From Bryoerythrophyllum caledonicum (Eukaryota > Streptophyta > Bryopsida > Pottiales > Pottiaceae), in contig OZ020515.1 of NCBI GenBank assembly GCA_963971425.1, positions 17,500,291 to 17,564,290 on the forward strand: a DNA stretch of 64,000 nucleotides, written 5' to 3'. Under the pieces are notes generated by a model. It was not told where the DNA came from and searched no databases. It was given only the letters and a program-made list of their open reading frames with translations. Numbering within the stretch: position 1 is the stretch's first letter; every line of letters starts with the position of its first letter. Shown piece after piece: positions 29,741 to 64,000 of the stretch. The position numbers were made by a program, and so were the translations under genes.

Positions 29741-29986
29741 TTGAGAGGGGCAAAAGAAATTCAAGAAACGAGACTAAAAAGAAGACCATCCTATTACCCA
29801 AGGTGGGAGAGAAATGTACCAATGACGTAGATTGTGGAGTGTGATGGGCGAAGGGCCACGGCCGCGATGATAGGCAGAGTCGCAGCGAAGCATACTAGTG
29901 GCCCTCGCGAGGGCGGAGGTTGGCATCGTCGCTCGAGCTCGACACACTCGCACTCGGGGTTCGGCACCAGCGACAGGGCAGGGGCG

Positions 29987-30916
29987 ATGGCGGGGCGGGC
30001 GATGGCGCGGCTGGCGCGGGTGCTGCGGCAGCCGCAGGGAGTGGCGCGCGTGGTTGGGGTGACGACGTCGCAGGCACAGGGGCAGGCGCAGGAGGAGGGT
30101 TTGGGCGTGAAGGGGTTGCGGGGTTTGGCGCTGGCGGGAGCCGTGGCGACGGGGCTGGTGGGGTTGGCGGGCGTGGCGCACGCGGACGAGGCGGAGCACG
30201 GGCTGGCGGCGCCGCAGTACTCGTGGTCGCACAATGGCGTGCTGAGCGGGTACGACCATGCGTCGATCCGGCGCGGGCAGCAGGTGTTCCAGCAGGTGTG
30301 CGCGGCGTGCCACAGTGCGAGCCTGGTGGCGTACCGCGACCTGATCGGGGTGGCGTACACGGAGGAAGAGGTCAAGTGCCTGGCCGCGGAGGTGGAGGTC
30401 GAGGACGGCCCCAACGACGAAGGTGAGATGTACACGCGACCCGGGAAACCGAGCGATCACTTCCAGAATCCTTACCCTAATGAGTCCGCGGCGCGGTTCG
30501 CGAACGGCGGGGCGTACCCGCCTGATTTGAGCTTGATCACCAAGGCGCGCCACGACGGGCAGAACTACGTGTTTGCGCTGCTGCTCGGGTACCGCGAGCC
30601 GCCCGCCGGGGTTTCTGTCCGCGAGGGCTTGCATTACAACCCTTACTTCGTCGGTGGCGCAATTGCGATGCCCAAGATGTTGACCGATGGCGGTGTCGAG
30701 TATGAGGACGGCACGCCCGCCACGGAGTCGCAGATGGCCAAGGACGTCGTCACATTCCTGTCGTGGGCCGCGGAGCCCGAGATGGACGAGCGCAAGCTCG
30801 CTGGAGCCAAGTGGATCTTTGTCATGTCCTTGGCACTGATGCAGGCCGCATACTACAAGCGCTTTAGGTGGTCGCCAATCAAGTCGAGGAAGCTTGTGTT
30901 TGATGTGGTCAACTAG
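29987..30916 (+). CDS. CYC1: Cytochrome c1, mitochondrial complex III haem protein
   Basis: Cytochrome c1 passes electrons from the Rieske protein to soluble cytochrome c in the bc1 complex. Starting at ATG 29987 the protein is 309 aa, the usual plant length. An upstream in-frame ATG at 29834 would add 51 low-complexity residues and is less likely. Residues 1-65 form a presequence: an Arg/Ala-rich mitochondrial part, then a hydrophobic stretch GLALAGAVATGLVGLAGVAHA, the typical bipartite signal. Haem is attached at CAACH (C105, C108, H109); the axial ligand is M228 (AIAMPKML). A C-terminal membrane helix spans about 273-290. There is no intron and the GC content is strikingly high, most of all in the first half. 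All key residues are present. Confidence 0.95.
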   Translation: MAGRAMARLARVLRQPQGVARVVGVTTSQAQGQAQEEGLGVKGLRGLALAGAVATGLVGLAGVAHADEAEHGLAAPQYSWSHNGVLSGYDHASIRRGQQVFQQVCAACHSASLVAYRDLIGVAYTEEEVKCLAAEVEVEDGPNDEGEMYTRPGKPSDHFQNPYPNESAARFANGGAYPPDLSLITKARHDGQNYVFALLLGYREPPAGVSVREGLHYNPYFVGGAIAMPKMLTDGGVEYEDGTPATESQMAKDVVTFLSWAAEPEMDERKLAGAKWIFVMSLALMQAAYYKRFRWSPIKSRKLVFDVVN

Positions 30917-48879: not shown

Positions 48880-51800
48880 ATGGCTTTCTCCAAGACGACG
48901 AATCATGTTGGTTGTGAGTCGCAGGTACCGCCCAAGGCGTCTTCTATTACGGTCATGATGATGCTGGCTTACCAGAGCTTTGGAGTGGTGTACGGCGATC
49001 TAAGCGTGTCCCCGCTCTACGTCTTCCAGAACACCTTTTCAGGCGACCTACGGGACAATGTCTCCGAGGACCAGATATATGGCGTGCTGTCGCTCGTCTT
49101 CTGGACCTTGACGTTGGTGCCCGTCATCAAGTACGCTCTCATCGTCCTAAGCGCTGACGACAATGGGGAAGGTAGATGACATGTTCATTTCTCGGGGGGA
49201 AGAAACGGTATTGATTTCTTGTGTAATAACAACTGTGGCGAGATTCTTTCAGGCGGTACATTTGCGCTCTACTCTTTGCTATGCCGCCACGCGAAACTGA
49301 GCCTGATACTCAACCAACAGACAGCAGACAGAGAGGTGTCCACTTACAAGCTAGTAGAGCCCCCGGACACAAGACGAGGGGAGCAAGTGCGCATGCTTCT
49401 CGAGAAGCACCGATGTCTCAGAACGGGGCTTCTCATCATCGTCCTGCTCGGCACTTCCATGGTGATCGGCGATGGCGTTCTCACCCCTTCCATCTCAGGT
49501 ACTACGGCTCGCATGCAAAACTATTTATCATCTTCACCGAAGATTCTCATGGATTTTTTTCATTGCTGCAGTTTTGTCAGCCATTTCCGGGATTTCGGTT
49601 GCGGCGCCGCACCTACACCAGAGTGAGTCTCATAGCACCTCCTTCTCACTCAACCAGCAGAGGTTTGTTGTGGTCATGGGAGAGATGAACCTAGTACCGC
49701 AGCCCGAACTTTTGGATATTGTCAGCTCGGGATGTTGTCATCTCTGATGTGGACGTTGTGATCGCAGACGTGGTGGTTATAGTGTCGTGCTGCATTTTGG
49801 TGCTCCTCTTCGCACTTCAGCACATCGGCACTCGCCGCATCTCGTTCCTGTTCGCGCCGGTGGTGCTTGCGTGGCTCTTCTGTAACTGCAGCGTGGGGCT
49901 GTACAACCTCGTCGCGTTCAACCCCGGGATCGTGCGCGCTCTCTCGCCCTACTACATCTATAAATTCTTCAAGGTTTCCAAAAAAGATGGCTGGATTTCT
50001 CTCGGCGGGGTTCTCCTCTGCGTCACAGGTCTCGCATCTTCACAGTAAAAACCCTAGCTTACATGATTCGGGAGACACCTCGTATTTATCACGGTGCTTT
50101 CCGTCATGCAGGGTCGGAGGCGATGTATGCCGACTTGGGACATTTTTCTCGGAGATCCATCAAGGTCATTTCCTCACAAGCAGTTGTGTTTGAAAGGTTC
50201 AAAAACAGGGTCTAACCCATTGTTTTGCAATTGGCTGCAGGTTGCATTTACATGCGTTGTGTACCCTAGTCTCACGCTGGGGTACATTGGCCAGGCTGCT
50301 TATCTATCGAAGAACTTCAACCGGGTTGACCATGGCTTCTTCCACTCCATCCCAAGTAAGCCCAAGACCTACGGAATCCATCGTTTTCTTTGTTTACGCG
50401 CCGAACTGATACAGGGTTTGTGTGTTCGCAGAGCCTGTGTTCTGGCCCGTCTTTGTCATAGGTGGGTTGTTCTTCTCTTCACTGTACTTCGGTTGATTGG
50501 TTCTATTGGTCTTCACCTGATTGTGGTTGTTGTTTGTTGCAGGGACAATGGCGTCGATCGTGGGGAGCCAAGCCGTCATCTCTGCGACATTCTCCATCAT
50601 CAAGCAATGCCAGGCGCTTGGTTGCTTCCCATGGGTGAAAGTGGTGCACACGTCACACACAATACACGGGCAAATCTACATTCCGGAAGTGAATTGGATC
50701 ATGTTAGCCCTCTGCTTGGGTGTTACAGTTGGATTCCAAAACACGATCGACATCGGCAATGCGTATGGTAAGTTTTAACGACAGCTTGCTTGTTGTAGAA
50801 ACCTTTGCTGAGAATAGTGGACATTATGATTTGCAGGGATTGCGGTGATCATGGTGATGCTGGTGACCACATTCTTGACAGCGCTTGTCATAATCGTCGT
50901 ATGGCAACGGAGCATCGCGCTGGCGCTTCTCTTCTTCCTCATTTTTGGCTCCGTGGAGTCTTTTTACTTATCATCAGCTCTCTTCAAAGTGCCGCAGGGA
51001 GGTTGGGTTCCCCTTGTTCTGGCTGGCATAGTCATGACCATTATGTACGTCTGGCATTACGGCACAACTCTCAAGTACAAGTTCGACCTGCAAAACAAGG
51101 TGTCCATGAAGTGGCTGCTCGCCCTCGGCCCCAGCCTCGGCATCGTTCGCGTGCCTGGCGTTGGGCTGATCTACACCGACCTCGTCACCGGCGTGCCCGC
51201 CATTTTCTCCCATTTTGTCACCAATCTGCCAGCCTTCCACCGGATCCTGGTGTTTGTTTGCATGAAATCCGTGCCGGTCCCCTATGTTCCTACCAATGAA
51301 CGCTTCTTGATCGGCCGTGTGGGTCCGAAAGATTACCGCATGTACAGGTGAGCTCCGCCACTTCTATCACTCTTTTTCTCATGTCTGCTTCTGATACCAT
51401 GTGATTGAAAGTTTGAGCTCTGTGCAGGTGTATTGTGAGGCGTGGATATAAGGATGCAACGGGAGACGACACCGAGTTTGAGAATCAGGTCGTCTCTAGC
51501 CTTGAGGAGTTCATCAAAACCGAGTCCTCCTCGGCTCCTTGGATCCCTTCCAGCAGCGAAATGTCGGTGGACGGTCGCATGGCGGTCAATGGCAACTTCG
51601 CATCCATCAATTCTCTCTCTCTGAGTTCCCTTTCAGACTCACCTTGCAGTGAAAGGCCGGCGGGGATGATGCACCGAGATAGCTCGGAGGTGAGTTCCTA
51701 ATCTCCTTCCATCACATGAAATTTCTCAACAAAGAAATGAAGTAGCCTATTGGCAGGTACCATGACCATATTATTAAACGATTGTGTATCTGTATGTTAG

Positions 51801-52545
51801 ACTGATTGCACTCTTTCTTTTCTGACATTCTAACAGAGCTATTCGTCTATCCATAGCTCTCTACTCTTTCTGTTTGGCCTAGAATTGTCACATGAGGTAG
51901 TGTAGTTGCGTTCCTCTTCGCTTGGAGAGTACAAACGTAGCAATGAGAAATCATGGGAGACCGTAAAAACTAGTCATGGAAGAGTTTTGGGTCACCGCAA
52001 GATGAGTGCTCCAAGAGAGTGTTTTTTTTTAATCTCAGCTGAATTTCTTCAAAGAGAGCATAAAATCACATAACTAAGTTCAGTTAGCTTCAAACCTCAC
52101 TGCTAGCAAGGGCCGTGACGTCTTCCTGGTGTGACATGCCTTCAGTAACAGAGTTTCTCTCATTTTGTAGCCCTTGGAGGACACCGCCACCTCGCTCCAC
52201 ACAGGGCGTAAGAAGCAGGTGCAATTCGACGTTCCCATAGTGATCCAGAGCGACGACATCGACAGCGACGTGGATGGGATGAACGGCACGCATGACAACG
52301 AGGTGGCGGACGTGAGCTCCGAGGTGCGGAAGGAGCTGGTCGACCTGATGAGCGCCAAAGAGGCCGGCGTGGCGTACGTGATCAGCCACTCGTACGTGAA
52401 GGCGACGAATCAGTCGTCGTGGGTGAAGCGCGTCGCCATCGACTTCGTGTTCCAGTTTTTGCGCACCAACTGCCGCGAGCCGTCCACGGCTCTGCACATC
52501 CCCCACATGAGCCTCATCGAAGTGGGCATGGTATACTACGTGTAG
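48880..52545 (+). CDS. HAK/KUP/KT family potassium transporter
   Basis: Membrane K+ uptake transporter. Eleven exons: 48880-49171, 49253-49498, 49572-49622, 49768-50028, 50112-50164, 50241-50355, 50432-50461, 50543-50767, 50837-51347, 51428-51689, 52171-52545. All junctions are GT-AG and in phase, giving 806 aa, normal for the family. The signature [15 protein letters not shown] (residues 35-49) is the first membrane segment; others include [51 protein letters not shown] and [16 protein letters not shown]. About twelve hydrophobic segments end near residue 500, followed by a cytosolic tail with a Ser-rich linker (about 630-680). The family usually has GDLGTSPLY where this has GDLSVSPLY. The protein ends ...IEVGMVYYV. 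An 84-bp tandem array follows directly. Confidence 0.93.
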
Positions 52546-52559
52546 GTAACTTACAATCT

Positions 52560-53165
52560 CTCCACAAGAGTCTCATGCTGTAAACATGGAGAGGTTCCAA
52601 TGAATGTTATGTCATTAGAGGTGATGCTAAAATATTACTAGAATCATTCGCGGTGAGTCTCATGCTGTAAACATCGAGAGGTTACAATGAGTGTTATGTC
52701 ATTACAAGTGATGCTGTAATATCACTATCATTCGCGGCAAGTCTCGTGCTGTAAATATGGAGAGGTTACAATGAATGTTATGTCATTAGAGGTGATGTTG
52801 TAATATTACTAGTATCGTTCGCGGTGAGTCTCATGCTGTAAACGTGGAGAGGTTACAATGAGTGTTATGTCATTAGAGGTGACGTTGTGATATTACTAGC
52901 ATTCGCGGTGAGTGTTGTGTTGTAAACATGGAGAGGTTACAATGAGTGTTATGTCATTAGAGGTGACGCTGTAATATTACTAGTATCGTTCGCGGTGAGT
53001 CTCATACTGTAAACATCGAGAGGTTACAATGAGTGTTATGTCATTAGAGGTGACGCTGTAATATTACTATCGTTTGCGGTGAGTCTCATGCTGTAAACAT
53101 CGAGAGGTTACAATGGATGTTTTGTCATTAGAGGTGACGCTGTAATATTACTATCATTTGCGGTG
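52560..53165 (+). repeat. 84-bp tandem array after the HAK/KUP gene
   Basis: Seven units of about 83-87 bp, each with GTGAGTCTCATGCTGTAAAC, GAGAGGTTACAATGAGTGTT and ATGTCATTAGAGGTGA words. They begin about 15 bp after the stop codon, so the array probably forms much of the 3' untranslated region. Units differ by a few bases and small indels. Confidence 0.85.
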
Positions 53166-54060
53166 AAATGTACAGTTCCCTTCAATAAAGATATGTAGCA
53201 ACAAAAAAATTGCCAGAACTATGAGAAAGCTACAAATTTGACTTGCCACTACAATCTCAAAAGAGCTTCAAATCCAAAACTAGAAAGTGCATTGGAAAGG
53301 TAGTAAAGTCTACACTCATGTCCACTAAATTCTTTTTTGACAAAATTGTAAGATTACACAACAATAGATATTTTATTAGCAAACTAGGTACCACCTAGTG
53401 TGCCTGTCATAACAACCATCTTACGGAAAGGCATGCTAAAGATGAGAGTGTCTATTCTCTTCACTCACACCTTCCCATACTCGTTGAATGGTTTTGATCA
53501 ATTCTTCTTTATTCTTTGGTGGATCCTCTTTTTGCACACAGTCTTTTACAATCTTCTAGAGGTTCTCAATAAGGTAGATAGATACCGTCCCCTTTTGTAA
53601 ATGGATGTAGTTAACAAAAGCCATTAAGTACATCTTATTTTATGCACAATGACCCTAACACCTTACACTCATGGAAGATGGCGCTCCAATGCATCAGAAT
53701 AGGCAATTAAGGCTTTGGAGAAAGGCCTATTATATGAGCAAGCTAGAATGGCTTGCAAAGTTCTGTACAAAATGAGGTCCTAGTGAAGGATACATAATAA
53801 TTGATCAAAATCATTCAATAAGCATGGAAAGACATGGGTGGAGAGATTATAGAAATTCTCATTTCTGCATGGCTATATGTATTGTGCATGCTATGAATGC
53901 TTGAGGCGGACACACCTCTAGATGGAAGCTAGTGTATTGATAAAAATCTATTGTTATGCGATCTTACATCTTTGTCAAGAAATTTTTTGGTGACACGAAA
54001 GTACACTCCACTACCTTCCCAATGCACTTCATGGTTGTGAATTTGAAGCTTAAGGGGATT

Positions 54061-54062: not shown

Positions 54063-54092
<30 letters not shown>

Positions 54093-54239
54093 AAGAAGAA
54101 GAAGAAGAAGAAGAAGAAGAAGAAGAAGAAGAAGAAGAAGAAGAAGAAGAAGAAGAAGAAGAAGAAGAAGAAGAAGAAGAAGAAGAAGAAGAAGAAGAAG
54201 AAGAAGAAGAAGAAGAAGAAGAAGAAGAAGAAGAAGAAG

Positions 54240-54268
<29 letters not shown>
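54063..54268 (+). repeat. (AAG)n microsatellite, about 68 units
   Basis: Uninterrupted AAG/GAA triplets over about 206 bp. The poly-Arg, poly-Ser and poly-Phe frames through it are artefacts. Confidence 0.98.
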
Positions 54269-54270
<2 letters not shown>

Positions 54271-54884: not shown

Positions 54885-56230
54885 ACATCAACTAGATTTA
54901 CTAACTTGCCCGGAGTCAAGTTGATTAAAGTCGGGAGCTATGTAGTAGTAACTTTTTCAAATTGATGTAGTTTATGCTATTTTGGTGTGAATAGAGTGGA
55001 TTTACTTGAATTAGGTTCGATCATGTGAATATGAATCAAATAGATGTATGAAGTAGTTTTGGTAGTTAGGATGTAAACCACCATTATATAACCACCTAGA
55101 ACTATAAGAGAAGAAGAGGAGGACAAAGGAAACACTACACACTTAGTTTTGAGGGATTACATTTTACAGTGTTAGTCATCATCTTAGCTTGATCTACTTG
55201 ATCATATTTTGCCATTGATTAGATTCTCGTTATGACTGTATAGTGTTAGTGGTTATGTTCTGATCATATCAACTGGATTCACTATGCACATGTACTATCA
55301 AATTGATGCGTGATCAACTGGATAAGTTGGATTATTGGAGTTGTCTGGTCTCACCTGTAACACATCAACTGGATTTGCTAACGTGCATACACTCTAACTG
55401 CGGAAATCTACTTGATACGGAGTTCAGGGTTAAGGGGGTATGTGGAGTCATAGTTGGGGAGGTTGTTAAGGGAGTCCAGAGTTAAAGTTATCAACTGGAT
55501 GAGAGAGAGTGAGAGATTCATTTGATAAGGAAGTCCAAAAGAAGGCCAAGGTTGCTTGGGAATTACAGCCGTGATTATCTACTGGAATTAAATAAGTTAA
55601 TTGTAGAGATGACGATCCTACAATAGCTAAGACTTGAGTTTTCTATCAATTGTACGTAAGTGTAGGTTACTAAGTGTGAGAGTAATATACATGCTTCAAA
55701 TTATAACATAGAAATACAAAGTCATCCGAAAATGTGAATGCTTGGTTGAATTATGTTTCACTGGATAATGTGTTCGGCCAACCATATCCACTAGATGATT
55801 TACTGAATGATTTGACATACAAAACCATTAATTCAATTAAGAATAATCTACTTGATAGGAGGTATGCGCAACCTTCATTCAAGAGAATATTATAACTATA
55901 ATTAGAATTAATTGAGTCTTTATAATTAAGGAAGATCAGGATGGTAAATTGATGTGTGAGAATCCATGAATTGTGATCAAGACATTTGACATACATAAGG
56001 TCTCAAGGGAGGATTGAGATCAAATTACAAGAAGTAAAGATGGAGTAAAGAGGAACGGGAGAATTGCATGAGTTAAGTATCAAAACCCTAATTTCAATTA
56101 CGCAAAACGGTATAATACCATTCATAATATGGACTAAGGTAAAGGAATTTACAATGTTGTGACTATCAAATTGATCATGGATACATCAACTGGATACTAA
56201 CGTTACTATCAATTTGATTGGATTAAGAGT
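54885..56230. repeat. Region dense in an ATCAACTGGAT-like motif
   Basis: Variants of ATC(A/T)ACT(G/T)GAT occur about a dozen times over 1.35 kb, for example near 54888, 55193, 55268, 55311, 55363, 55408, 55488, 55846 and 56186, with looser forms between. The motif is nearly palindromic. There is no fixed spacing, so it is not a simple tandem array. No gene is seen in the stretch. Confidence 0.5.
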
Positions 56231-56417
56231 GTTCCCGGAATAATAATTAATTCCTTAAAGAAGTATCCTTTGGGTTAATTCAATAATAAACACAATTACA
56301 ACCTTCATGTGACCTTAAGCTACTTATACATTATACGAAAAGATCCATTCCCCATAGAAGTTCATAGAATTGAATTGCATGGAGTGATTTTGAAGAGTTC
56401 AATGAAAGATCAAATTT

Positions 56418-57695
56418 CTATACTACATTAGCATAGGCCTCCTCGACCTTAACGGTCTGCTCCACCATGAAGGCAATCACCCTCTTGCTGGAAATATGGC
56501 CATCTCTCTCCAACTTGGCATCAAACATCTTGGCCTTCATCACCGCATCCGCCAGGAAGTATAATGCCTCCTCCACCTCCTGTAACCCCGCTACCGAGGC
56601 ATTGGCTTGGAGAAGAGCCTCCTTGCAACTCTTCTCCACCTCCAATGCCCGGCTCTTCATCTTTGTCATGTCAAGAGTGAGCCGGTTGACCTTCTGCTCC
56701 ATGATGCGGAGATCACCCGCTCCTCCAATCTTCTCCTTGACTGTGGCAATCAGTCCTTCGCACAGAGGATTGCCCACCAAGCTGCTCACATGTCCCAAAG
56801 TCCTATCCACATCGTCCACATACACACGAAGAACCTCTATCAACTCGGATGCCCGATAAGTCTTACCTCCGAGTTGAACTGGTCCGGTAGCCGCGGCACG
56901 GACTGTAGCTCGTGTCCGTGTGGAAGGTGCTCCTCTCTGCCTCTGTCTCTAACGCTTGGAGGGTGGTAGAGCTTCGTCCTCTGACTACGATGAGCTGCTC
57001 TGTCCTTCCGATCTTGGCTCAGGATCTGACTCCATTCCTTCAAACTTCATCATCATAAGTTGAGTTCCATACGCCATGGCCTCCTCCGGAATGGTCTCCT
57101 TGAAGTGATGATAGAGGTGGATCGAGAAAGAGCAGATGGGTGAGCGCTTGGTGCTGTTGGCACCCTTTGTCAATCTGAGCACCACGTCTTTGACAATGAT
57201 GGCCCAGTTTACCACCCTTTCTCCAAGATAGGAACCATACAGGGTGTTAGCAAGGGTGATTGTGACTCCGGTGGGTTTCTCAAGCTCTAAGATTGGTACA
57301 ACGAATGAGAAGACCCGCTTGGCTCTAGGGTCCAGACAATCCTGCAATGCATAACCATTCTTGACATCCTTGGTGCCGAAACGTCCATTAGTATATTCTT
57401 CCTTCTTCATGCTTGTCCATCCTGCTCTGTGTCGTGGAAACACGTACATTTCTTGCCACCTATCCATTGTCCACCAATTCGGGCAAGCCCGGATGCTATC
57501 CCCTTTGGATTCCGGTAATGGATCCTGCCGTATCTCTTGCACGGTTGAATACACACAAAAGCTCCAACAAAACTCAAGGAGAGAGAGACATCTCATACGG
57601 AGGGGATTCTCCTTGAGCTCGGTGAGTTCAAGAAGATCCTTGGGAAAGACAGGGGAAATATCCTTAGCCATGGAAGACACCAGGTTGGAGACCAT
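56418..57695 (-). pseudogene. Unidentified repeat-type protein, decayed
   Basis: Minus-strand coding character runs through two main blocks, 57695-56985 and 56843-56418, that lie in the same frame. The N-terminal block contains LLEFCWSFCVYSTVQEIRQ, NWWTMDRWQEMYVFPRHRAG and a helical FKETIPEEAMAYGTQLMMMK. The C-terminal block is a likely coiled coil (NRLTLDMTKMKSRALEVEKS). No enzyme motif is visible. It resembles the structural proteins that plant repeats often carry, but I cannot assign it. It seems to have only a few breaks. Confidence 0.4.
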
Positions 57696-57721
57696 TCTTC
57701 TAGCCTCGATCCTTCCTACCG

Positions 57722-57845
57722 TTCCTCGCCTTGGTCGTTCCGGGCTCCGCCTACTCGGATGCAGCAGCTCCTCGCCTTGGTCGTTCCGGGCTCCGCCTGC
57801 TCGGATGCAACAGCTCCTTGCCTTCGTCGTTCCGAGCTTCGCCTA
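57722..57845 (+). repeat. Short tandem repeat, ~55-bp unit
   Basis: The phrase CTCGCCTTGGTCGTTCCGGG plus a following CTCCGCCTxCTCGGATGCA occurs twice, with a third diverged copy. It lies just upstream (minus strand) of the reading frame that starts at 57695. Confidence 0.65.
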
Positions 57846-57849
57846 TAAG

Positions 57850-58050
57850 ATATTTAATTGAAATAATTTATATAACTAATTATAAATTAATAATTATAAT
57901 ATATTATAATCTAAATTATAATATAATATAATAATTAATTATATAATATAATTATATATAATTATATTAATATAATGTTTTAAATTAATATTATATTATT
58001 TAATAATTATATATTATTCATTAATATTATAGTATTTAATAAATTAAATA
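57850..58050. repeat. Nearly pure AT tract
   Basis: About 190 bp made almost only of A and T (TATAATATAATAATTAATTA type). It is followed by a short tandem run of TTTGGAATAGAAAGTxTAC units at about 58140-58215. Confidence 0.8.
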
Positions 58051-58494
58051 GAATTTGATGAGGCTCTTGGTGAGGCAACACTCACACTTCAACTGAACTT
58101 AAGAAAGATAAAGCTAGAACTAAAGTTTTGATTTGTCAGAATTGGAATAGAAAGTCTACTTTTGGAATAGAAAGTATACTTTTGGAATAGGAAGTATACT
58201 TTTGGAATAGAAAGTCTACACATAAGCACTTCATTAATAAACGTGTCGCCTCCGTTGGTACAACGGGTATATGCCCTGGTGTGTAAATATTAGAGTAGCC
58301 ACACTCCATTTCAAGCCTCAAAATTAATAGAGTTTTTCTAAAAGTCACAAGAATACATACGATAGTCATCCCAGATCTTTTGTTAGTAACTGGGACTATA
58401 TGTATATAATGGCTTGGCTTGGAAAAGATATGAGGGAATCAAAGCTCAATTCTTAGTGAACATAGGGTCCTATACGGGAGCTCTAGCTTGCATG

Positions 58495-58735
58495 GGATTA
58501 GGGCCCAAGCGGTGTAGTGGTTTGAGTCACACTGGTGAGGTGGTTGTGACTTCAAATCTCCATGCTGGTGTGGTGCCCACTACCATAGTCCACTCAACTA
58601 TGGTGGGGGTCTTAATGACCTTGTTGTGTGGGTATCCAAAAAGCCCTTGGGGGAATGACATGTCGGTTGTCTCTAAGGCACTTACTGTAGAAAAGTGTTT
58701 ACTCTTGAGAGGAAGGAGTACACTATAAGAAACCC
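58495..58735 (+). mobile_element. Candidate tRNA-derived SINE
   Basis: TAGTGGTTTGAG (A-box-like) is followed about 30 bp later by GACTTCAAATCTC (B-box-like), the spacing of an internal RNA polymerase III promoter. About 190 bp of non-coding body follows. Target duplications were not found, so this is tentative. Confidence 0.35.
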
Positions 58736-60055
58736 GTGTTTTTTGTAACGCGTTGAAAAAAATGTATGAACGTAAAAAAAAACATGTTTGACATCAATGT
58801 TGATGTCACCTAAAATTTGTCAAGTTGGATAGGCAAAAAATGTCCTAATTTTTTTTAATATGCATGATTAGGGAATATCAACTTCTTAATGTACAATACA
58901 ACGACGTCTAACAAGCTATGCAAAGGGCTCCATGTGGAGGGGTCGTCATGCCCACATAAACAATGTTTTTCTTTGGGGAGTGCCATGCGGGAATTTTTTC
59001 ATCCAACTCCATCATGACGTGGGATTTGAAATTTGCTAACGTGGATTCCATTTATGATGTTAGCAATCCATGTTAGCTAGCGTCATGATTTTCTTCGCAT
59101 CTTTTGTTCACCTAGGACTGTTGCGTTTGACGTTTCTCTGACATGTTTGTGTTCTCCACGACATTAACCTTAAGGTAGGCCCGTTTTGGACAACACCAAG
59201 ACTAATATGTGTTGTGAGTGGAGACGTGCAACACTGTCAACTCTAATGTGAAAAATAACATGCCATCAATGTGCATTGCTGGCTTTGACATTTGCAGTAA
59301 CATGGTTGGTGGTAAACTATACAACACCGTTGTTGCATTTGTTGTCTATAACAACATAAAGCATCCTATACATATTGATGTTCTACCCATTTTAAATATG
59401 ATATACTAAGTTTGTCTCATCTAATCGATGAAAAAGAGTAGTTGTTGCCCCAAACATCAAAAGAAACATTGCCCTAGTGCTATGACATCAATGATGTCAA
59501 GACTGCGCGGCCCCATCACTTTTTTTGAATGGCCTCAGCTTTCTTGCCGCTCCCATCCTCCATCATCCCGCAGCTATCCTCACAACATTAGTTTGTGAAT
59601 GAGCTTCTACATTCAAAAAGATTACTTTCTTTGTGGGTTTAGCACATTTTGACTTGTACCCTAGCTTCCATTTGAATTGAAAATCAAAGAAAAAACAAAT
59701 AAAAAATAGATACTTTTGAAACGCTGGTTGACACAATCACTTGTAAGGTAAATTAGAGGTAGTGCCCCATCCTCATTGACATTACAAATTGTCACTCGTA
59801 ACGTAAAAAATGACGTGAAGATTGATGGGTTGCTGATGATGGCTGCGACGGTTAATGGGAGGTTGGAGAACTACGGCTAGCTGCTGCTAAGAAGGGCTGC
59901 CAATCCCTAATCTTGCTGATATAGCAAGATTCATCAAACCCTAACTTGAATTTGCTCAAAATCCCTGTAGAGAGCAAAATCCTCAAAATACTAGGTAAAA
60001 AGCTCTTCAAAAAACTCTACAATAGCAATCAAGAAATCTGAAAACCCTAGTTGTA
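58736..60055. other. Spacer, no gene recognised
   Basis: Mixed sequence with many CAACAxx and GATGT phrases, no supported frame, no clear repeat boundaries. Confidence 0.35.
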
Positions 60056-60059
60056 ATAC

Positions 60060-60235
60060 TACATAGAACTCAAGTAGGAGAAATGTTTCAACCTTGGTTG
60101 CAATATTGCTTTAAACTCTAGTTGCAAATTGCTTGAAACCCTAGGTGAAAATTGCTTCAAACTCTAGTTGCAAATTGCTTGAAAGCCTAGTTGCAAATTG
60201 CTTCAAAATATGGTTGCAAATTGCTTCAAACCCTA
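60060..60235 (+). repeat. 22-bp minisatellite
   Basis: Around seven to eight units of a TTGCTTCAAACCCTAGTTGCAAA-like sequence with 22-bp spacing, moderately diverged. The core AAACCCTAG recalls a telomere word, but the period is 22. Confidence 0.7.
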
Positions 60236-61545
60236 ATTGTTTATGGTGGCAAGATTCACATGGATCAAACTTTTGCATAGTCGCCAATTTATCCCATGTA
60301 AGCAAAGTTAATATTCCAAGCAAGTTTTGCCTATTTATGTAGAGGAGCTGCCCATGCGGCTGTTGTGCAACAAAGACCTGACATCTCAAAAAACACCCCA
60401 CCTTGCAGCCTTGACGACACCAAAAACGTGGCTTTTTTACAATGATAGCTCTAGATTCACTATCCTTTGTCTGGCGGCCATTGGATTAATGATTGGAATG
60501 AACAAATACTATATTCATGTCGATCCCTTCCAAGGTCCGATATTCTTCTTTCTCTAGAGTCTAAGAGCAATAATTGTCATGCATTTCAATAGTGCAAGAA
60601 AAATGAGGTACGAGATCTTTCATGCGCTCTTCCTTTCCGTTTTAAATCTCGTCCTATTTGGCACCATATTCCTCTTGTGGCTTTCCACTCTAGGAAGCAC
60701 TTTCAAGAAAAGTCTATTTTATCAAATTCAAATCTCAATCAAAATCCACCACATTGACATCCATATCACAAACATTTTACTTTCTAGAACGAGCAAAGGC
60801 AAGTTTCATCATCACCAAATGCTGGACACATTCCGTAACCTCTCCGAAAAGAATTGGATGAAACATTCTAAATCTTCATCCCAGTGTCATCCAAGATGCC
60901 ACCTTTTGTCTCCGTTCGAGAATTAGTAAGCTCCTCGTTGACGGTGCGCCGTCTTTGCACATGATCTCTCACTTGCTCCAACACAATTCACACCATAGCT
61001 TAGAGTTCTTCTCACTATCAACGCCTCTCCAACAAAGATTGCCGTTTTTGCAACTACAATGTGCTTCAACCAGAGGTGTGACGAGTTCTGGTCGAGTGGG
61101 GGTCACATCATGGCTGGCTGTGAGCTAGGATTTTTCCATAAGCTCTTCACTTGCAAGTATTCTTCTTTACTGTAGCTGGCATTCATTGACGGTCTGTTGA
61201 TCTATGTTTGAGATTGAATCTGGTATTTTGAGGTAGAGGATTGTAACTGAATTCGGGAGTGTTTGGAGTCTGGTGATTGATGTGATGATTTTTTCTTGAC
61301 AAATATGCTATCTCTGTAGCGACTGGATTCCGAGTCTAACAATTCTCAGTTTCGCATTGCAACCTGTTGTTTGTTTTCTGCGAAGAGACCTACTCATCTT
61401 GTAAGAGTGCGCAGTCGCTATTTCCTACCTACCTCGCTACCTTGTAACATTGCTCCTTCGACCTTAGTAGAGCAGAACGTTGAGCGACCTGACTGTACCA
61501 CATTCATTCTGTAGCAAGAAAGAGAACCACGTCAGTAGAGGAAAG
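60236..61545 (+). promoter_or_regulatory. Upstream region of the gag-RNase H gene
   Basis: 60.3-60.9 kb holds short frames without recognised family. From about 61.0 kb composition becomes gene-like. No TATA box or leader intron could be placed with confidence. An in-frame extension upstream of the ATG to 61480 lacks an ATG. Confidence 0.3.
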
Positions 61546-62946
61546 ATGGATCGCTGGAGCACAATGGAGGAGGAAGACCGTTTGAAGGGTCTCCAAGATT
61601 ATTATGTGTGGTCACTGAAGATGCGGGAGATACTGCGCGCGGAGGGACTCTGGGCGATTACAGAAGAACCACAGACGCCGCAGAGCTTTCCTGCAACCAT
61701 AGATGGCGAGGAGTTCAAGGACCTGCATCAGCTCGAGCGCAAGAAGGCGATCGCGTGTTGCCGAATCATATTCGCAGTCACGGACCATCTTCGCTACGCC
61801 GTGGCAGACTTCGACGATCCAGCTCTTGCATGGCGTGCCCTCAAGACTTATCTTTCTTGGGGTAGCCCGTCTCATGTGTTCACCCTCAGGAGCCAACTGC
61901 TCAATCTCAGGCTACAGGAGGGAGGATCTGTGGAGGACTATCTAAATAAGGCGCGCGAGCTCCGCGATATGCTAAGTAGCATGGGAGAAAAGTTCTCAGA
62001 TCGCTATCTTAACGCGACTGTACTGAACGGGTTACCGCGGTCTTACGAGAGCACGATACCGATTTTGTACCACTCGGACGCATCCATGACGTTCGAAACT
62101 TTGTGTTCGAGACTCTTAACTGAGTCCTGTCGCAGGGACCATAGGAACCAACTCCTTGAAGCTGCATCCCAGGCATCACTCGGGAGTGGGTGGGATTGTG
62201 GCTGTGATCATTGGAGACGTGCTCTTGAGAAAGTGGAGATGGAGCAGGGCGATGAATTTGCTCTTCGGAAGTTCGACCCTTATGCATACGGCCATGAGCA
62301 GGGCGCGGCTCCGAGCGAGGTGCTCAGTTCAGATCCGCGTTGCTGCCCGATCGTTCACATAAGATATCCTTTTAAGTGTTACTCCTTTGCACTGTACGCG
62401 GATGGCGCGTGTGCAGGCAACGGCACTCCTCGAGCGCGGGCCAGTGTGGGCGTTTACAGCACGCCCAAAGCGTATTACAACCGGGGATACGTCCTGCCTG
62501 TGGGTGTCCCGCAGACGAGTCAGAGCGCGGAAATTCACTCCGCCATCGCTGCGCTTGAAGTCGCCAGAGCGATCGTCGAAGAGAGGTGGGAACGGGTGCC
62601 TCTTCCAGACGATGGCCACGTTTACACTCACGTGCTCCTGGTTATGGACTCGAGCTACGTTGTGCAAGCGATGACGGAATGGATGCGCAAGTGGCGAGTG
62701 ATTGGATTTCGCAACGCTCGTGGAGAGCCCGTAGCGAATATGGAGGCACTGATGCGACTGGACAATGAAATCAGAGAGCTCTTCGAAAAGCACCTCATCA
62801 TTGTCCAGTTCTGGCATGTCCCTCGTATTCACAATGCAGGTGCGGATCGGATGGCGGCTCATGCGCTCCGTGATAACACCAGCATTGGTTTCAAGTTAGA
62901 TTCTGACTTGGACGAAATGACAGAAAGATTTGCCCAGCAGTGGTAG
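61546..62946 (+). CDS. Gag-like (UBN2) domain fused to RNase H, 466 aa
   Basis: One uninterrupted, intronless frame with two unrelated halves. Residues ~15-200 form a copia-type gag domain (UBN2/DUF4219): YYVWSLKMREILRAEGLW, LAWRALKTYLSW, LRLQEGGSVEDYLNKARELR, LNGLPRSYESTI. Residues ~280-445 form an RNase H1-like domain with all four catalytic acids: D286 (YADGACAGNG), E329 (SAEIHSAIAALE), D368 (VMDSSYV) and D434 (NAGADRMAAHAL). There is no zinc knuckle, protease, integrase or reverse transcriptase, and no LTR seen nearby, so this is not a standard element. RNase H would cut RNA in RNA-DNA hybrids; the gag part could bind RNA or multimerise. A domesticated host gene is the best guess. Downstream lies a partial duplicate of the second half. 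Confidence 0.75.
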   Translation: MDRWSTMEEEDRLKGLQDYYVWSLKMREILRAEGLWAITEEPQTPQSFPATIDGEEFKDLHQLERKKAIACCRIIFAVTDHLRYAVADFDDPALAWRALKTYLSWGSPSHVFTLRSQLLNLRLQEGGSVEDYLNKARELRDMLSSMGEKFSDRYLNATVLNGLPRSYESTIPILYHSDASMTFETLCSRLLTESCRRDHRNQLLEAASQASLGSGWDCGCDHWRRALEKVEMEQGDEFALRKFDPYAYGHEQGAAPSEVLSSDPRCCPIVHIRYPFKCYSFALYADGACAGNGTPRARASVGVYSTPKAYYNRGYVLPVGVPQTSQSAEIHSAIAALEVARAIVEERWERVPLPDDGHVYTHVLLVMDSSYVVQAMTEWMRKWRVIGFRNARGEPVANMEALMRLDNEIRELFEKHLIIVQFWHVPRIHNAGADRMAAHALRDNTSIGFKLDSDLDEMTERFAQQW

Positions 62947-63400
62947 AGCTGAGATTGAGTTTTCTCGAGGCGACGAGGTGCTGCATGTTCAAGAGTACCA
63001 CCACCCGGCTTACATCACTGATATACAGTTGTTGAATTACGGTTTTTCAGTTGGTAAAATTGCTTTGTTTCGTGGCTTCATAACGTCTTGTGAGAAGTGC
63101 GTTATGTTTGAGTTGTCTGTCTTCGTTAGGCTTGCACGTCGGCTTGGAGTCAATGTTAGGTCTGCTATAATGTGACGTTATGTTTTTTTGGACGGAGAAG
63201 TAAGCTTTCTGACGTGGTTTTAGGTGAGTACTTTGTATGCCATTGTTTCAAGCTTGTGCCAGCTTTTACCAAGTAGGGGGCAAGAAGAAGGCAGATACGT
63301 AACAGCATTCTACAGGTTAGTTGACGGACACCATCTCTGAAGTTGAACCTTATGAACGGATCTTTTTGCCAGGTGCTGTGCTTGAGAGAAAACTGACTTT
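62947..63400. other. Spacer between the RNase H gene and its partial duplicate
   Basis: 3' flank of the preceding gene. No feature recognised. Confidence 0.35.
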
Positions 63401-63439
63401 TTCCTTGCTTGGTCTGCGAGAACAACTGTGTGCTTTTCA

Positions 63440-63725
63440 AGCTGATAACAGGATCTCTTGGCATTATGAGAGCTCGCTGGATGTGTGACCGTGGTTATTG
63501 GATCACAGCGTCTAGGATGATGGACGTGCTTCTGGGTGGCGATGAGTTTGATCTTCGGATTTTCAGCCCTCCTGCATGCGGCCGCCCACAGGATTTTTGC
63601 GTCCAAACCGTCGAAGGATCCTCCGTGTGAGCCGCTTGTGTTGATGGGAACCCGTATTATTTTGCTCTGTACGCAGACGCCGCATGCCGAAGCAATGGCA
63701 CTCCTCAAGCCCGGGCGATTGTGTG
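63440..63725 (+). pseudogene. Truncated duplicate of the RNase H gene's linker and domain start
   Basis: Resembles the linker and start of the RNase H domain of the upstream gene: RWMCDRGYWITASRMMDVLL and GDEFDLRIF match CDHWRRALEK and GDEFALRKF, and FALYADAACRSNGTPQARA matches FALYADGACAGNGTPRARA. It stops soon after the first catalytic motif and has no gag part. It is a decayed tandem copy. Confidence 0.7.
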
Positions 63726-64000
63726 AAGGAGCAAATGATAAATGAAAGCAAGAGTCTAATAATGATGTACAGGTGAGGCTAAATACAGAGACAGGAGCAT
63801 TTATTACAACAATATCGCCGAACTAAGCCCTAAACCCTAAACCCTGGGGTTAAGGAAATGAACCCGCAACAACTGTATGTGTTTTGCTCATTAAGACACA
63901 GTGATCATCAAGCTGATAAAAGACTATCGTGACGATGTACAAGAATAACTTAACGTGCCACTGTGCACTCTTGCAAGATTAGTAGGTCTCTTTGCAGAAA
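63726..64000. other. End of window, no gene
   Basis: Contains a short CCCTAAACCCTAAACCC run at about 63826-63846. Nothing else recognised. Confidence 0.4.

Follow-up and report, generated by a model that had tools for sequence, protein, structure and literature searches.

A single-copy host chimera in which a copia gag was captured into an RNase H gene copy

The fusion gene and its surroundings

We analysed a window of 64,000 nucleotides (C2:17500291–17564290 of a 437 Mb assembly), in which an open frame at 61546–62946 on the plus strand runs for 466 codons from ATG to TAG. Counted from stop to stop it spans 491 codons from 61471, the longest of the window's 53 frames of at least 120 codons, and the bases at −3 and +4 of its ATG are A and G. 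The encoded protein matched two Pfam profiles, Retrotran_gag_2/UBN2 (PF14223) at residues 26–201 (E = 4.2e-23, 82.1 bits; cut-off 27) and RNase_H (PF00075) at residues 282–440 (E = 3.1e-13, 50.5 bits; cut-off 25.8); both matches lie far beyond the cut-off, which speaks against chance. The capsid region of a captured copia gag takes up residues 1–206 (61546–62163, +). It is followed by a junction at 62164–62190 (+) and by the host RNase H half with its N-terminal extension, residues 214–466 (62185–62946, +). No CCHC motif, and hence no zinc knuckle, was found in the fusion.

Residues D286, E329, D368 and D434 align with the catalytic positions of the Ribonuclease H1 chain 2qk9, which itself has N in place of the third acid, and the same D-E-D-D set is present in all three members of the family, namely the fusion and the genes A and B described below. 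The profile match and the four acids together identify a type 1-like RNase H, and the original prediction of an intact 466-codon frame with both domains and all catalytic acids held throughout. The PDB chains closest in sequence to the RNase H half were Ribonuclease H1 (2qk9, 8swb and 6vrd), the human enzyme, followed by bacterial RNases HI. Single-sequence structure prediction of the fusion protein yielded no usable model (mean pLDDT 37.7), and scans that reach close relatives only found no prokaryotic or viral relative.

We then looked for the remainder of a retroelement around the fusion. No LTR-like direct repeats flanking it were found, and a Pfam scan of the seven longer flanking ORFs found no protease, integrase or reverse transcriptase, the sole match being a protein kinase. 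When 19 kb (55001–64000 and the next 10 kb) were searched with 48 protein pieces, taken from two copia frames and from the frames around other RNase H matches, two pieces matched, both to the gag half itself; these 48 pieces produced 13 rows when run against a copia control element, and no match to any of them came from the 30 kb that surround genes A and B. Neither a gag leader nor an LTR was seen 5' of the gag, in that comparison with 30 copia loci gave no DNA match before ∼61583. The claim that the fusion stands without the rest of a retroelement is thus borne out. High copy number, which would have pointed to a live element family, was not found either: the genome contains four matches to the RNase H half, and a DNA search with the single-copy gag half returned itself and one 122-base piece at 71% identity.

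It could be argued that the locus is what remains of a retroelement with an extra RNase H of its own. An added RNase H occurs in some LTR elements, the gag and RNase H domains are both of types found in retroelements, and this genome holds many matches to the RNase H profile (2911 candidates, of which 150 were scored, with the fusion and genes A and B among them); most of the other matches we took as retroelement RNases H. Frame pieces from 10 of the 12 best such loci matched neither A nor B, nor the RNase H half of the fusion. However, the copy number is one, no LTR, reverse transcriptase, protease or integrase was found nearby, no pol piece lies around A or B, and the gag-less members of the family have the layout of host genes. 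We therefore regard this explanation as largely refuted and very improbable. The flanking LTRs and pol expected of a copia LTR retrotransposon were not found, and what is present is a gag-derived frame without them whose copy number is far from that of an active family, as expected of a domesticated gag gene.

Part of the 5' flank of the fusion (61157–61418) recurs in inverse orientation at 63957–64000 on the minus strand, continuing 212 bases beyond the window end. This copy, ∼1 kb 3' of the fusion stop, aligns over 262 bases at 91.6% (about 92%) once the flank is joined. A transposon with terminal inverted repeats (the pair 61157–61418 and 63957–64212) was considered and rejected, the left arm being flank homologous to gene A; a DNA search with the pair returned this site only, a search that is insensitive, since it missed a known weaker match on C9. 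Readthrough into the inverted copy could give a hairpin RNA directed against the fusion gene's own leader. The neighbouring kinase gene (L009:5287–6671, minus strand) belongs to a large family with at least 102 matches and clusters on contigs C10, C12 and C6. Elsewhere in the window, a GC-rich block holds a cytochrome c1 frame (29831–30913, +; 361 open codons, Pfam E = 3.1e-97), and two stretches that resemble exons of a K+ transporter gene (K_trans, K_trans_C) lie at 50830–51348 and 52171–52542 (+). The last of these is followed directly on its 3' side by a tandem array of seven ∼84-base copies (52568–53166), and a perfect AAG repeat of 69 copies occupies 54063–54269.

RNase H genes without gag and the origin of the fusion

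All four candidates in the genome search with the RNase H half were scored and matched: the fusion itself, genes A and B on contig C9, and a fragment just downstream of the fusion. Genes A and B, both intact and gag-less, form a tandem pair on the minus strand (C9:12058908–12061245). Each starts MTARW and has all the catalytic acids. In amino acids, the RNase H half is 81% identical to A and 60% identical to B. Judged by eye, gene A appears to open with a 5'UTR exon that a GT...AG intron of ∼255 bases separates from the start codon.

The fusion is embedded in the same flanks. A 5'UTR-like stretch at 60906–61490 (+; designated UTR by eye) is homologous to the 5'UTR exon of gene A, with 78–85% identity and many indels; the value varies with the gap penalty, and the harshest penalty gave no alignment. 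In blastn comparison with the gene A locus, 61201–61295 and 61384–61411 were the matching pieces of this flank. On the other side, 62947–63376 (+) is homologous to the 3' flank of A at 83–88% identity, depending on gap penalty. It is followed at 63420–63723 (+) by a degenerate, truncated homologue of gene B (41% amino acid identity, with one TGA, in the search with the RNase H half; 84% DNA identity to B over 299 bases). The gag-less homologue that the original prediction placed downstream is therefore real, though a fragment and no gene.

The order of features on C2 is thus 5' flank homology, the fusion in A's place, the 3' flank of A and a piece of B. The gag lies between the 5' flank and the coding exon, where gene A has its intron. 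DNA homology to A begins at ∼62189, and A's own start codon has been lost, the codon opposite its ATG being CTC (62179–62181). Gag is absent from gene B too, so that in this RNase H family the fusion is likely to be derived from an ancestral gag-less form. The shared flanks of A, the single-copy gag and the kept RNase H frame together indicate a host-gene chimera and not a retroelement, and we conclude with high confidence that a copia gag was captured into a host RNase H gene. The idea that gag was added to the N-terminus of an RNase H gene that already existed is supported by the gag-less tandem pair on C9 and by the flanks that it shares with the fusion on both sides. That the joint is in frame is in itself weak evidence, because any joint keeps the frame one time in three.

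How the RNase H gene reached C2 was explored by comparing the C2 stretch (the window plus 20 kb) with a 30 kb stretch of C9. A whole-segment origin by genome duplication was rejected, as matches beyond the RNase H genes and their flanks are short and mostly fall at several places; we took them as repeats. The kinase beside the fusion had no C9 match among the 102 matches listed (92 of 865 candidates scored). Over the limited stretches compared, a local duplicate of the A–B pair thus fits better. We believe that a plant RNase H gene would have been duplicated as a tandem pair to the C2 site, and that the first copy would then have lost its 5'UTR intron and start codon to the captured copia gag. 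With intron and start codon lost to gag, the sole full-length product would be a Gag(capsid)–RNase H chimera.

The gag half, its copia relatives and tests for selection

The closest copia gags to the gag half are 56–57% identical, among the matches listed in a protein search (91 of 1161 candidates scored). When the gag half was combined with seven of the genome's own copia gags into a profile, this matched the Drosophila Copia VLP protein over the capsid (E = 6.3e-05), with weak matches to Ty1 p22 chains (E = 0.04–0.05) and Drt2 (E = 0.48). A strict CCHC motif was present in one of three copia elements examined, L047, near frame residue 287, ∼80 residues past the point at which the captured gag ends. 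The gag half has stayed open over all its 206 residues, which still align with the copia gags compared apart from a single inserted residue near position 60. GC3 is 0.61 in the gag half, 0.59 in the RNase H half and 0.60 in gene A, against 0.36–0.56 in 27 copia gags; the resemblance of the gag half to the RNase H half, and not to copia gags, may mean that it did not arrive recently. At columns invariant in six copia families, the fusion is altered at 11 of 49, and the same leave-one-out count for the six copia elements ranges from 1/39 to 11/49 (seven of eight sequences were used, L028 being dropped as close to L015 and decaying).

Some copia relatives of the gag half look recent. L047 has a 1457-codon frame and LTR stretches 99.3% alike over 139 bases; the corresponding values are 98.8% over 82 bases in L045 and 92.7% over 151 bases in L046, the lengths for L047 and L045 being limited by the ends of the fetched DNA. 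Among the matches listed (150 scored), many copia gags are clustered at one place per large contig, a pattern known from moss centromeres. Two tandem arrays were seen as well, one of a broken copia piece with twelve gags at an even spacing of 3291 bases, each with one TAA (C3:5526855–5563571), and a second with six gag frames at an even spacing of 4996 bases (C2:13240536–13266031).

Over 254 codons, the fusion and gene A share 87% DNA and 80% protein identity, with dN 0.11–0.12 and dS 0.23–0.26. The pairwise maximum-likelihood omega is 0.50, omega = 1 being worse by 4.5 lnL units. When gene B was used as outgroup, omega was 0.33 on the branch of gene A (fixing it at 1 costs 1.3 lnL units) and 0.70 on the RNase H branch of the fusion, where fixing it at 1 costs 0.13 lnL units; the latter value is indistinguishable from 1. 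By contrast, the reading frame is kept. In ∼760 aligned bases of the RNase H half there are no frame-breaking indels and one 6-base gap at two of three gap penalties; three 1-base gaps that appear at the laxest penalty are absent at the stricter ones. The flanks had 47 frame-breaking gaps in 858 aligned bases, 31 in 903 and 6 in 424 at the three penalties, the 3' flank alone being in effect aligned at the strictest. At these rates 20.8, 13 or 5.4 frame-breaking indels would be expected in 760 bases on one branch. We conclude, because such gaps are absent from the coding alignment, that selection protected the reading frame of the RNase H half during much of the period after the duplication, even though its residues changed rather freely.

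For the gag half, omega = 1 was rejected on the terminal branch (lnL −4088.4 versus −4108.5), but this branch includes the sequence's life as an element. It is also saturated, with dS ∼4 under one ratio and an own-ratio estimate that ran to its bound. Most of it must predate capture. The post-capture share would be a dS of only ∼0.10–0.18, the length of the fusion's RNase H branch, so that selection on gag after capture is not demonstrable. The gag tree comprised 12 of 28 gag sequences and the codon model eight of those 12; omega was 0.013–0.028 on the element branches L027, L031 and L038, and 7.05 on L028.

The omega value of the fusion branch is compatible with a gag fragment having recently landed by accident in a redundant RNase H copy, its frame open by chance and its protein unmade or idle. 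The in-frame joint would demand no more than one chance in three. The site is also unstable, given that the neighbouring copy at 63420–63723 has decayed and that the 5' flank was copied in inverse. The open gag would fit as well, since ∼2 stops would be expected in it under neutrality since the split, with a probability of ∼0.1 that none arose (0.11–0.63 for 0.10–0.02 neutral changes per site). On the other hand, the frame of the RNase H half survived a period in which both flanks gathered many indels, and the gag half already equals this half in GC3. A donor-like copia was also not found (best 57%, among the matches listed, 91 of 1161 candidates), which is odd for the recent capture of a resident element. 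We consider a young accident plausible, if rather doubtful.

A gag that is merely carried along must also be weighed. Here the fusion would be expressed and its RNase H would continue an ancestral housekeeping role, the gag giving a start codon and leader only. Full-length translation does need the ATG of gag, because the native start is lost and the next in-frame methionine (residue 232) aligns with M21 of gene A; the context of that ATG, noted above, and the kept RNase H frame fit this explanation. A passenger would nevertheless tolerate shortening, and the gag remains open and alignable over its whole length. We judge a passive gag to be unlikely, though by no means negligible.

Possible function and comparison with known systems

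We regard it as quite possible, though somewhat short of an even chance, that the fusion protein is made and used with gag contributing to its action. If so, its most likely working, as we infer it, is that the capsid domain concentrates RNase H at sites of RNA–DNA hybrids. Through the capsid domain, the protein would assemble with itself or enter the capsids or RNPs of copia elements; the assembled protein would bring RNase H to the places where hybrids form, and the enzyme would cut their RNA strand. Expression, assembly, enzyme activity and target are all parts of this proposal. In a milder version, the capsid domain may merely assemble RNase H, which needs no target element.

In the capsid-targeted version, the copia capsid domain would carry the host RNase H into copia particles, where it would destroy the RNA–DNA hybrid needed for reverse transcription. 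The parts for such action appear, from their sequence, to be present: a capsid domain, no zinc knuckle and intact nuclease acids. That no close relative of the donor gag lineage is among the matches found would fit, without proving, an old conflict that the host has won. Capsid restriction in yeast hinges on three residues and is highly subfamily-specific (PMC12530519). Because the gag half is at most 57% identical to any copia found, restriction of present-day elements is disfavoured; the close match to a target capsid that marks a restriction factor of the Drt2/p22 type is lacking among the matches listed (best 57%, 91 of 1161). Anti-retroelement action as a natural form of capsid-targeted inactivation thus seems improbable to us, and both retroelement restriction and the clearing of R-loops, the two roles originally suggested, are speculation.

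Cellular RNase H1 has a hybrid-binding domain, and the fusion has a gag domain in its place. Both enzymes carry the D-E-D-D acids, and beyond the third of these a W-rich stretch of the two can be aligned, but the fusion differs in its family-specific N-terminal extension of ∼70 residues and in a shorter stretch before the last Asp.

The capture itself has parallels. In yeast, Drt2 restricts Ty1', the element from which its capsid domain was captured (PMC10951436), and, like the fusion, represents a Pseudoviridae gag capsid domain kept as a host gene. In Drt2 and Ty1 p22/p18, restriction factors that derive from gags of the Ty1 family, the part that inhibits is the capsid C-terminal domain, which works by lattice poisoning, and no enzyme is attached (PMC10951436; PMC12530519). 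These factors are also highly subfamily-specific (PMC12530519), whereas no close relative of the fusion gag was found in its genome among the matches listed. Domesticated mammalian gag genes likewise keep a gag capsid as a host protein, but derive from Metaviridae and not from copia, and the cited part of that account mentions no cellular RNase H partner (PMC11011659).

The closest likeness in domain order is an engineered one. A Gag that carries RNase HI at its C-terminal end restrains murine leukaemia virus, an approach described as capsid-targeted viral inactivation, and shares with the fusion a capsid protein followed by a C-terminal RNase H; these are laboratory constructs in which the Gag of the target virus itself is joined to RNase HI from E. 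coli (PMC5035972). The present fusion differs in being a natural gene that joins a copia-type gag to a plant RNase H copy. Literature searches of open-licence papers revealed no natural Gag–RNase H host gene among the matches listed. Captured gags acting as natural restriction factors and Gag–nuclease fusions designed in the laboratory as antivirals were already known separately. Although omega on the fusion branch looks neutral, the interest of the locus lies in its natural Gag–RNase H order: a natural capsid domain joined to a host RNase H gene would link the two, and would offer a ready test for capsid-guided nucleases in plants.
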